Positions 20,065-22,550 of a stretch of 64,000 nt of DNA are shown here, piece by piece. The notes below the pieces were generated by a model. That model saw only the letters and a list, made by a program, of their open reading frames with translations. It was not told the origin of the DNA and searched no databases. The number at the start of each line of letters is the position of its first letter. Position 1 is the stretch's first letter. Source of the DNA: Corallococcus macrosporus DSM 14697 (GTDB lineage Bacteria; Myxococcota; Myxococcia; Myxococcales; Myxococcaceae). Where the stretch lies: the NCBI RefSeq assembly GCF_002305895.1, contig NZ_CP022203.1, positions 2,768,501-2,832,500 of the forward strand. The letters are read 5' to 3'. A program made the position numbers and the translations under genes.

Positions 20065-21234
20065 GTGCGGCCTCCCAGGGACGAGCTGTCTTCGCGGCGG
20101 TTTCAACAACGACTGGCCCAGGCCATGGGCGTGACGCGGGTGGCGCGCGTCACCGGGCTGGACCGGACCGGCGTGGAGGTGGCCTGCGCGGTGCGTCCGG
20201 GCGGCCACGTCCTCCAGGTGTGCAACGGCAAGGGCCTCTCCTTCGAGGACGCGGCCTGGGGCGCGCTGCTGGAGACGGCGGAGCTGTGGGCGGCGGAGAC
20301 GGTGGCGCCGGACGCGCTCGTGTGCGGCTCACTCGCGGAGCTGGATGGCCGCATGGGCACGCTGTGGGGCGCGGACGAGCTGGGCTCGGCGGGGGCGCTC
20401 GTGGCGCCGCGCCTGTGGAGCCCGCACGTGCGCTGTGCCTGGCGCGAGGCCACGGACCTGTACTCCGGTGCGCCGGTGTGGGTGCCCGCCCAGGGCCTGC
20501 ACGTGCCGCCCGCGGGAAGCCCCGCGCTGGGCCCGGTGGCGGTGGCGTGGACGAGCAATGGCTCCGGCGCGCACCCGGACGCGAAGAAGGCCTTGCTGCA
20601 CGCGCTGCTGGAGGCCACGGAGCGGGACCAGCTCGCGCGGGCCCTGCCTGAGGGCTGGACGGAGGAGGGTGTCCATCGCCGGCTGCTGCGCGCTCCGGAG
20701 CTGGCGGAGCACGCCCCCTCCGTGGAGGCCCTGGCGGGCCGCCTGCGGGAGCGGGGCTTCGGCGTGTACCTCTTCGATGCCACGCCGGCGTCGCGCACGC
20801 CGGGCGCGGTGGGGTTGCCGGTGGGCGCGGCGATATTGGTGGACCTGGAGGAGGGCCCGGTGCCGCTCACCGCGGGGTATGCGTGCGCGCTGACGCGGGA
20901 GTCGGCGCTGCTGAAGGCCTTGCTGGAGGCGGCGCAGTCGCGGCTGACGGACATCCACGGCGCTCGCGAGGACGTCGCCGCCACGGACCGCGAGGCCGCT
21001 CGGGGCTTCGCGGAGGCCTGCGCCCAGGTCCGGCCGCGTCGGCGCGTGGCGGACATGCCGGATGTGGGGGCGAAGGCGCGCGGCGCGGCGGCGGGGCAGG
21101 TGCGGCAGGTGCTGGCGTTGCTCCAGCGCGCGGGCTTCACGCGGGCGGCGGCGGTGGCGCTGACCGCTCCGGTGGAAGGCCTCCACGTCCAGCGCGTGGT
21201 GGTGCCGGGCATGCGCATCTCGGAGCTCCTATGA
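20065..21234 (+). CDS. YcaO-domain protein paired with TfuA
   Basis: ATP-dependent peptide-backbone cyclodehydratase/thioamidase family, 389 aa. Seen: the ATP-binding block 'SNGSGAHPDAKKALLHALLE' followed by 'ATERDQLARALP', the second half-site 'ALLEAAQSRLTDIHGAREDV', and the C-terminal 'VVVPGMRISELL'. In archaea and in thioviridamide-type pathways YcaO with TfuA installs thioamides, YcaO activating the amide with ATP. The GTG at 20065 (AAGG upstream) is preferred; an ATG at 19996 would overlap the divergent peroxiredoxin start. The stop overlaps the tfuA start as ATGA. No RiPP precursor is obvious nearby. Confidence 0.9.
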   Translation: MRPPRDELSSRRFQQRLAQAMGVTRVARVTGLDRTGVEVACAVRPGGHVLQVCNGKGLSFEDAAWGALLETAELWAAETVAPDALVCGSLAELDGRMGTLWGADELGSAGALVAPRLWSPHVRCAWREATDLYSGAPVWVPAQGLHVPPAGSPALGPVAVAWTSNGSGAHPDAKKALLHALLEATERDQLARALPEGWTEEGVHRRLLRAPELAEHAPSVEALAGRLRERGFGVYLFDATPASRTPGAVGLPVGAAILVDLEEGPVPLTAGYACALTRESALLKALLEAAQSRLTDIHGAREDVAATDREAARGFAEACAQVRPRRRVADMPDVGAKARGAAAGQVRQVLALLQRAGFTRAAAVALTAPVEGLHVQRVVVPGMRISELL

Positions 21235-22550
21235 AGCGGCGCGCGGACAGTCTGGTGGTGTTCCTGGGGCCCTCGCTGCCGGAGGCGGAGGCGAAGCGGC
21301 TGGCGCCCTGCACGGTGCTGCCGCCCGCGCGGCAGGGAGACGTGTGGCGCGCGCTGAGCCTGCGGCCCCGGGCCATTGCCCTGGTGGATGGCGTCTTCGA
21401 GGCGCAGCCCTCGGTGTGGCACCACGAGCTGCTGGCGGCGCTGGAGGCGGGCGTGGCCGTCTTCGGTGGCGGCAGCATGGGCGCGCTGCGCGCGGCGGAG
21501 CTGGCCCCGCACGGCATGGTGGGCGTGGGGCGCATCTTCGAGTGGTACCGCGACGGCGTGGTGGTGGACGACTCGGAGGTGGCGCTGCTGCACGCGGACG
21601 AGGAGCACGGCTGGCGTCCGCTCACGGTGCCCCTGGTCAACGTGCGGTACGCCGCGGAGCGCGCGGCTCATGCGCGGGTGTTGGGCCGGGCCGCCGCCCA
21701 GGCGCTGGTGGACGCGGGGCAGGCCGTCTTCTACCAGGAGCGCACGTGGGCGCGGGTGCTGGAGGCCGTGACGCCACACTGGCCCGCGTCCACCCGGGCC
21801 GCGTGGGACGGGTGGTTCGTGCGCGGCGCGGAGGACTTGAAGAGGCAGGACGCGCTCGCGTGCCTTCGCGCGGCGGCGGAGTGGGTGGCTTCGGGCGCGC
21901 CCGCGCCGCACCTGTCTTCGCGTGTGTCGTCCCATGGCGTGACGGCGACGGATGGCGCTGGGGCCCTGGGCGGGCACGGCGCTTCGGGGGCGTCCGGCGC
22001 CCGCGGCCGTCGGCGGCTGGATGGCGTGAGCCCGACACAGGCGGGCGCCGTGTCCTCGGGGGAGCAGGGGCCGGCGCGTGTGCCGTCGTCCCTGGTCCGG
22101 CGCAGGCGGCTGGTGGATGACGTGACGGCGACGCAGGCGGGCCCGGTGTCCTCGGGCCGGGTGCTGGACGTCCTCCGGGAGTCTCCCGACGCGGCGGCGC
22201 TGGCGGAGGCGGGGCTGCGCCGGGCGCTGCTCGCGGGCTGGGCGCGCACCCAGGGGCTGAGCGTCTCCGCCGCCGAGGTGGACGAGGCGGAGGCGGCGTG
22301 GTGGCGGGGCCAGCGCGTGCCCGCCTCGCGCCGTGAGGCCTGGCTGGCCCGTCTGGGGTTGGACGCGCAGGGGCTGCGGCGGCTGTGCGAGGAGCGCGCC
22401 CTGGAGCGGCTCGCCCTGGAGAACGCCTCGCGCCTGCTGCCGGATGGCCCCTCCTGGGACGAGGCCCTGGCCGCCGAGGCCCGGCTGGGCGGGCGCTGGG
22501 CGGACGCCGCCGAGGCGGTGGACCCAACGGAGGGCGTTGGGTCCTCCTGA
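21231..22550 (+). CDS. TfuA-like protein with repeat-bearing insert
   Basis: 439 aa. The N-terminal 215 residues are a TfuA domain: 'VVFLGPSLPEAEAKRLAPC', 'ALVDGVFEAQPSVWHHELL', the hallmark 'GGGSMGALRAAELAPHGMVG' (Ser82) and 'GVVVDDSEVALLHADEEHG'. TfuA partners are known to help YcaO by delivering sulfide, reported to come from thiocarboxylated carrier protein. A low-complexity linker (about 220-305) follows, containing two diverged copies of a V-x-x-TQAG-x-VSSG unit, then a helical C-terminal domain (305-430) with no family I recognise. Translationally coupled to the YcaO gene. Confidence 0.9.
   Translation: MKRRADSLVVFLGPSLPEAEAKRLAPCTVLPPARQGDVWRALSLRPRAIALVDGVFEAQPSVWHHELLAALEAGVAVFGGGSMGALRAAELAPHGMVGVGRIFEWYRDGVVVDDSEVALLHADEEHGWRPLTVPLVNVRYAAERAAHARVLGRAAAQALVDAGQAVFYQERTWARVLEAVTPHWPASTRAAWDGWFVRGAEDLKRQDALACLRAAAEWVASGAPAPHLSSRVSSHGVTATDGAGALGGHGASGASGARGRRRLDGVSPTQAGAVSSGEQGPARVPSSLVRRRRLVDDVTATQAGPVSSGRVLDVLRESPDAAALAEAGLRRALLAGWARTQGLSVSAAEVDEAEAAWWRGQRVPASRREAWLARLGLDAQGLRRLCEERALERLALENASRLLPDGPSWDEALAAEARLGGRWADAAEAVDPTEGVGSS
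22520..22544 (+). terminator. Strong hairpin at the 3' end of tfuA
   Basis: A perfect 10-bp stem (GGACCCAACG / CGTTGGGTCC) with a GAGGG loop spans the last codons of tfuA, ending 4 bp before the stop codon. No T-tract follows; it may still stop or stabilise the ycaO-tfuA transcript. Confidence 0.4.

Follow-up and report, generated by a model that had tools for sequence, protein, structure and literature searches.

An order-wide YcaO-TfuA gene pair of the Myxococcales without a neighbouring precursor, a putative thioamidation system that may act on a cellular protein

The locus was analysed in a stretch of 64,000 nucleotides from Corallococcus macrosporus DSM 14697 (the window; contig NZ_CP022203.1, positions 2,768,501 to 2,832,500). 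Two coupled genes, ycaO and tfuA, are located on its plus strand, with the following features (window coordinates):

20065..21234, plus strand: ycaO, 389 aa, GTG start; PF02624 at 177 bits; predicted model matches MjYcaO 6PEU/6PE3
20272..20283, plus strand: YcaO ExxE motif, E70 and E73 (ATP/Mg site); invariant in 24 orthologs; aligns with EAIE of MJ1094
20557..20625, plus strand: YcaO N165-G166 to ExxER (E183, E186, R187; ATP/Mg site); invariant in 24 orthologs; aligns with NTNG...EIIER of MJ1094
20935..20973, plus strand: YcaO QxRxTxxHGAR.D segment, Q291-D303; invariant positions in 24 orthologs; aligns with AQSR...HGFRRD of MJ1094
21231..22550, plus strand: tfuA, 439 aa; PF07812 at 147 bits; residues 6-222 match 6XP8
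21474..21491, plus strand: TfuA SMGALR core motif, S82-R87; invariant in 24 orthologs
22080..22550, plus strand: TfuA C-terminal helical extension (predicted model) with PSSxVRRRRL and PDGP...E motifs

The start codon of tfuA (ATG, 21231) and the stop codon of ycaO (21232-21234) overlap as ATGA at 21231-21234, as the preliminary description had stated. The GTG at 20065 is a plausible ycaO start, since the alignment with the orthologs begins near residue 17 and a longer ORF from 19957 would enter the divergent peroxiredoxin gene. In Pfam profile searches both proteins scored far above the family cut-offs (25.7 bits for PF02624, 30 bits for PF07812), placing them in the YcaO superfamily and the TfuA family. 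A whole-genome scan of the source genome (8,973,512 bases) returned one YcaO and one TfuA match, with no second copy of either. Named relatives of the YcaO were found in Myxococcus, Pyxidicoccus, Corallococcus, Archangium, Hyalangium, Citreicoccus and Anaeromyxobacter, those of Myxococcus being the closest.

The residues of the YcaO ATP site were assigned by alignment with MJ1094, of which the structure was solved with ATP (6PE3). All 24 orthologs compared are identical at E70, E73, N165, G166, E183, E186, R187, Q291, R293, R301 and D303. The claim that the ATP-site motifs are complete was thus confirmed, the residues being intact and aligned with those of ATP-bound MJ1094, and the degenerate site that was looked for in the relatives was not seen in any of the 24. 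The AlphaFold model of YcaO (pTM 0.91) has the M. jannaschii methanogen enzyme (6PEU/6PE3) as its best structural match with an E value of 1e-19; among 41 PDB matches at E ≤ 0.001, all the named ones are YcaO proteins or YcaO-domain cyclodehydratases.

For TfuA, the hallmark had been given as SMGALRAAEL, of which the SMGALRA core is intact and invariant in the 24 orthologs. Residues 6-222 superimpose on M. acetivorans TfuA (6XP8) with a Z score of 28 and an rmsd of 1.9 in a structure alignment. Whereas archaeal TfuA has 217 residues, the window protein continues, past a linker, into a C-terminal extension of about 155 aa. This helical region is present in the window TfuA and in the orthologs, shorter in the most distant ones, and was modelled with a pLDDT of about 85-97 across most of residues 301-430. 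Comparison with the SurA/PrsA/PEB4 chaperone domains gave a Foldseek probability of 0.97 but an E value of 0.15, and Z scores of 6.8-7.5 against SurA/PrsA-like structures, which is within noise for helical models. The SurA_N_3 profile matched the C-terminus marginally (E 0.21), in two of 13 members only. Matches to the N-terminal domain prevail in the VIA-align list for TfuA, which is thus not informative on the families matching the C-terminus. A SurA/PrsA-like fold of this part is suggested by the model, not proven, and is a lead only. If such a fold were real, the extension might, speculatively, hold an unfolded substrate or help to present it.

Two further sequence elements were observed in tfuA. 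The linker contains an in-frame duplication of two 70-nt copies (21991-22060 and 22087-22156), 96 nt apart and 76% identical, in a part where the model is disordered (pLDDT about 30); this duplication is not found in the orthologs. A perfect 10-bp hairpin at 22520-22544 (GGACCCAACG gaggg CGTTGGGTCC) overlaps the last tfuA codons and is not followed by a T run. A similar but imperfect hairpin persists in loci without the pair.

The YcaO query matched 112 of 145 Myxococcales genomes, 108 of which contain a true ortholog. The matches in G061, G069, G071 and G072 were only 35-36% identical, as would be seen with a separate paralog (31-37%) and less than with the orthologs (44-91%, in local segments), and were excluded from the count. 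Orthologs occur in 92 of the 115 good-quality genomes, and some of the absences among the 145 come from draft metagenome assemblies. The genomes G044, G053, G081, G089 and G140-G142 are nearly complete and lack the pair. Five families are covered, with one ortholog per genome except for genes split across contigs or segments, and all complete loci that were read have tfuA next to ycaO. In the phylum sample, TfuA outside the order is confined to two genomes (loci L120 and L121), whose YcaO is about 30% identical. A Myxococcus-type ortholog of 83% identity is contained in L155, a public record whose title, ‘Comamonas sp. KCTC 72670’, looks mislabelled.

A tree of YcaO and TfuA shares 14 of 22 splits with a tree of the ribosomal proteins uL22, uS3, uL16 and uL14 of the same 25 genomes, compared to a maximum of two in 500 label shuffles. 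For both genes dN/dS is about 0.16-0.43, as simple Nei-Gojobori values for high-GC genes, which indicates purifying selection and, taken with the orthologs in the order, confirms that the observation of a YcaO-TfuA pair is real and far beyond chance. The pair is not ultra-conserved, its rate of evolution being about that of the neighbouring genes. Judged from these sequence comparisons, the pattern is that of a vertically inherited function and not of an exchanged natural-product cluster.

Several complete genomes no longer have the pair. An intact locus from which exactly the pair is missing was seen in four Myxococcus genomes (10.2-10.4 Mb; one or two contigs each): the genes for the sigma factor, the DUF2378 protein, BCP (77-79% identical), the kinase and the methyltransferase are kept, and the gap between the BCP and kinase genes is only about 440 bp. 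As sister lineages have the pair, loss is the simplest reading of its absence, and since no neighbour was lost along with it, the pair is a two-gene unit that is self-contained and dispensable.

In Myxococcus and the genera close to it, the sigma-factor, DUF2378 and BCP genes flank the pair on one side, and kinase or methyltransferase genes follow on its other side. The neighbours differ in the family's remaining genera and in other families, and ycaO and tfuA alone recur across all loci. The BCP peroxiredoxin had been taken as a hint of sulfur or redox control; this was not supported, as BCP adjoins the pair only within one syntenic group of genera, and neither the remaining genera of the family nor the other families show this arrangement. 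The gene following tfuA in the g26/g4/g13 group, by eye of the endonuclease/exonuclease/phosphatase type, was dropped as a local neighbour only.

A precursor was searched for by comparing 2,499 small ORFs (22-130 codons long, up to about 4 kb from the pair) across 51 loci from five families. No conserved small ORF was found beside the orthologous pair in these loci. Clusters of small ORFs spanning several genera were, in the cases inspected, fragments of larger neighbour genes or antisense to them. In genus g7, intervals of only about 30-40 bp separate the pair from the upstream stop and the downstream start, so that a precursor has no space there. None of the 51 loci keeps a RiPP transporter, protease, tailoring or precursor gene beside the pair, so that the absence of transporter, protease and precursor noted from the window extends to the orthologs. 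A sulfur-carrier gene conserved in the flanks was likewise not found across the loci compared. No Nif11 leader peptide was found in the source genome; a search for NHLP leaders gave no match anywhere, its controls being silent too.

Precursor-like genes are recognisable where they are present, as was seen in Candidatus Eremiobacterota and in Acanthopleuribacter pedis. In the former (L222:5247-7392 and L223:5250-7420), TfuA and YcaO are directly followed by a precursor-like ORF of 97-106 aa, and this locus is probably a RiPP cluster. In the latter (L218:363-7065), a TfuA-YcaO fusion of 935 codons lies beside a TP-methylase-family gene, with a 92-aa ORF with a Pro/Gly/Asp-rich end further upstream, a layout that may be borosin-like.

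A second, paralogous YcaO-TfuA pair, designated group B, is present in many of the larger Myxococcaceae genomes (L032-L061 and L226-L242), in up to several copies and often near a large Ser/Thr kinase gene. As in the pair described here (group A), YcaO and TfuA are adjacent and the same precursor test gave no obvious precursor. Group B differs in its YcaO (31-37% identical), its patchy distribution and its neighbours, and no similarity was detected between the C-terminal parts of the TfuA proteins of both groups. The group B pairs were also considered as the source of a shared precursor, and none was found.

The closest characterised system is the YcaO-TfuA pair of methanogens that modifies a glycine of McrA (TIGR03266 / NF033432; MjYcaO 6PE3/6PEU, MaTfuA 6XP8). 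Both systems consist of the same two enzymes with the same folds, an ATGA-type coupling has been reported for the methanogen genes too (PMC5589413), and both show mostly vertical inheritance and, presumably in the case of the window pair, a substrate in trans. However, the window pair scores below both equivalog cut-offs (TIGR03266, 110.2 of 365 bits; NF033432, 189 of 235.2 bits), and McrA (PF02745) gave no match in the source genome while the controls were detected, in line with the absence that had been expected. With folds and motifs matched, the equivalogs below cut-off and McrA missing, the pair is read as thioamidation machinery but not as the McrA system.

We infer from the characterised pairs (PMC5589413, PMC8120280, PMC13174530) that the Myxococcales enzymes form thioamides. 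As in their relatives, YcaO would use ATP and Mg to activate a backbone amide, TfuA would liberate sulfide equivalents from a ThiS-like carrier in its thiocarboxylated form, and the backbone would finally contain one or a few C=S bonds. Sulfur is supplied by a ThiS-family carrier in TfuA-dependent systems (PMC13063428). The source genome contains three ThiS-family matches, all away from the pair, and one of these proteins encoded elsewhere could plausibly deliver the sulfur. Judging from genomics only, the enzymes would act not on a secreted peptide but, like those that modify McrA or uL16, on a cellular protein whose gene lies elsewhere. Overall, we consider it somewhat probable (about 0.55) that this is a thioamidation pair, inherited vertically since the Myxococcales ancestor, which acts in trans and most likely on a cellular protein. 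The exclusion of the known contexts and the vertical inheritance both point to such a substrate. The preliminary description had proposed a substrate in trans, either a cellular protein or a remote peptide; this proposal is supported and has gained in strength, and the order-wide vertical inheritance favours the cellular protein. Precedents for protein substrates are McrA (PMC5589413) and uL16 (PMC13063428).

The strongest competing explanation, implied by the antiSMASH label ‘thioamitide’, is that the pair makes a thioamidated RiPP whose precursor is encoded far away from it. The YcaO-TfuA pairs characterised in bacteria in the cited literature have precursor peptides as substrates (PMC8120280, PMC6511847, PMC13174530). 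Precursor-like ORFs lie close to the nearest relatives from other phyla or orders, in Eremiobacterota and Acanthopleuribacter, and a dispensable pair would suit such a product. The adjacent ycaO and tfuA are indeed shared with thioamidated RiPP clusters (thioviridamide-like, thiovarsolin, thioamidated thiopeptides; ‘thioamitides’ in antiSMASH). Unlike those clusters, the Myxococcales pair is accompanied by no conserved precursor, transporter, protease or tailoring genes in the 51 loci, it is inherited vertically as a single copy order-wide, and the source genome has no Nif11 leader peptide. A remote RiPP is therefore possible but doubtful, at roughly one chance in four.

The label itself is triggered by the bare enzyme pair. 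One ‘thioamitides’ cluster has been reported on scaffold 3 of Citreicoccus inhibens M34 (PMC8538283), and a survey of conserved Myxococcota clusters includes a ‘thioamitide’ of Anaeromyxobacter that is conserved and unknown (PMC12766979). In genome G014, the single TfuA, on a contig of 456,665 bp, is the ortholog of the window TfuA. Corallococcus has been named among the dominant proteobacterial TfuA families (PMC8120280). The literature found makes no mention that the locus is precursor-less, order-wide and follows the species tree.

That the pair would thioamidate the ribosomal protein uL16, as Escherichia coli YcaO does, was considered because uL16 of the source genome has the target loop RMG(T)GKG and a housekeeping-like inheritance would fit. 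The E. coli-type system likewise has no precursor next door and a housekeeping-like distribution (PMC13063428). The uL16-modifying YcaO proteins, however, are acidic (EcYcaO pI 4.4) and have no TfuA nearby (PMC13063428), whereas the window YcaO has a pI of 6.8 (5.3-10.9 in the orthologs), is always accompanied by TfuA and is only weakly similar to EcYcaO in sequence. In addition, comparison of the uL16 loops by tblastn showed that the RMG loop is identical in pair-less genomes and that genome G093 has the pair and yet an RQG loop, which makes uL16 an unlikely target. In this G093 protein (L150), RQGTGKG replaces RMGTGKG at the position of Met82, the residue thioamidated in E. coli.

A different chemistry, such as azoline or amidine formation or the use of another nucleophile, is the least likely alternative: YcaO enzymes do take several nucleophiles (PMC13063428) and the flanks contain no conserved sulfur-carrier gene, but the YcaO-TfuA pairs of known product in the cited literature all make thioamides, the folds and motifs of both proteins are conserved, and ThiS-like proteins are encoded elsewhere in the genome.

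Thioamidation of a cellular protein in trans thus remains the preferred reading. Two observations speak against it: the pair evolves about as fast as the genes around it, where slower change might be expected of an enzyme with an invariant target, and its loss in several complete genomes shows that it is dispensable.

McrA and uL16 are the only two proteins named as having a characterised backbone thioamide (PMC13063428), and an order-wide pair without precursor points to a third. With about even odds, a cellular protein of the Myxococcales undergoes a backbone thioamidation that is inherited vertically and has not been described before. This protein would be the third such target, McrA and uL16 being the other two, and the first bacterial one with a dedicated TfuA. 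If this is true, the antiSMASH ‘thioamitide cluster’ at the locus is not a natural-product cluster. Rule-based mining labels the bare pair as a RiPP cluster, and a ‘thioamitide’ product sought on that basis may not exist. A backbone thioamide is nearly isobaric with an oxidation and easy to miss. Myxococcus xanthus is an established genetic model within the order, which makes the proposal directly testable, and the Myxococcus genomes that lost the pair are ready comparators in a search for the substrate. A cellular protein target, if found, would be of high interest.
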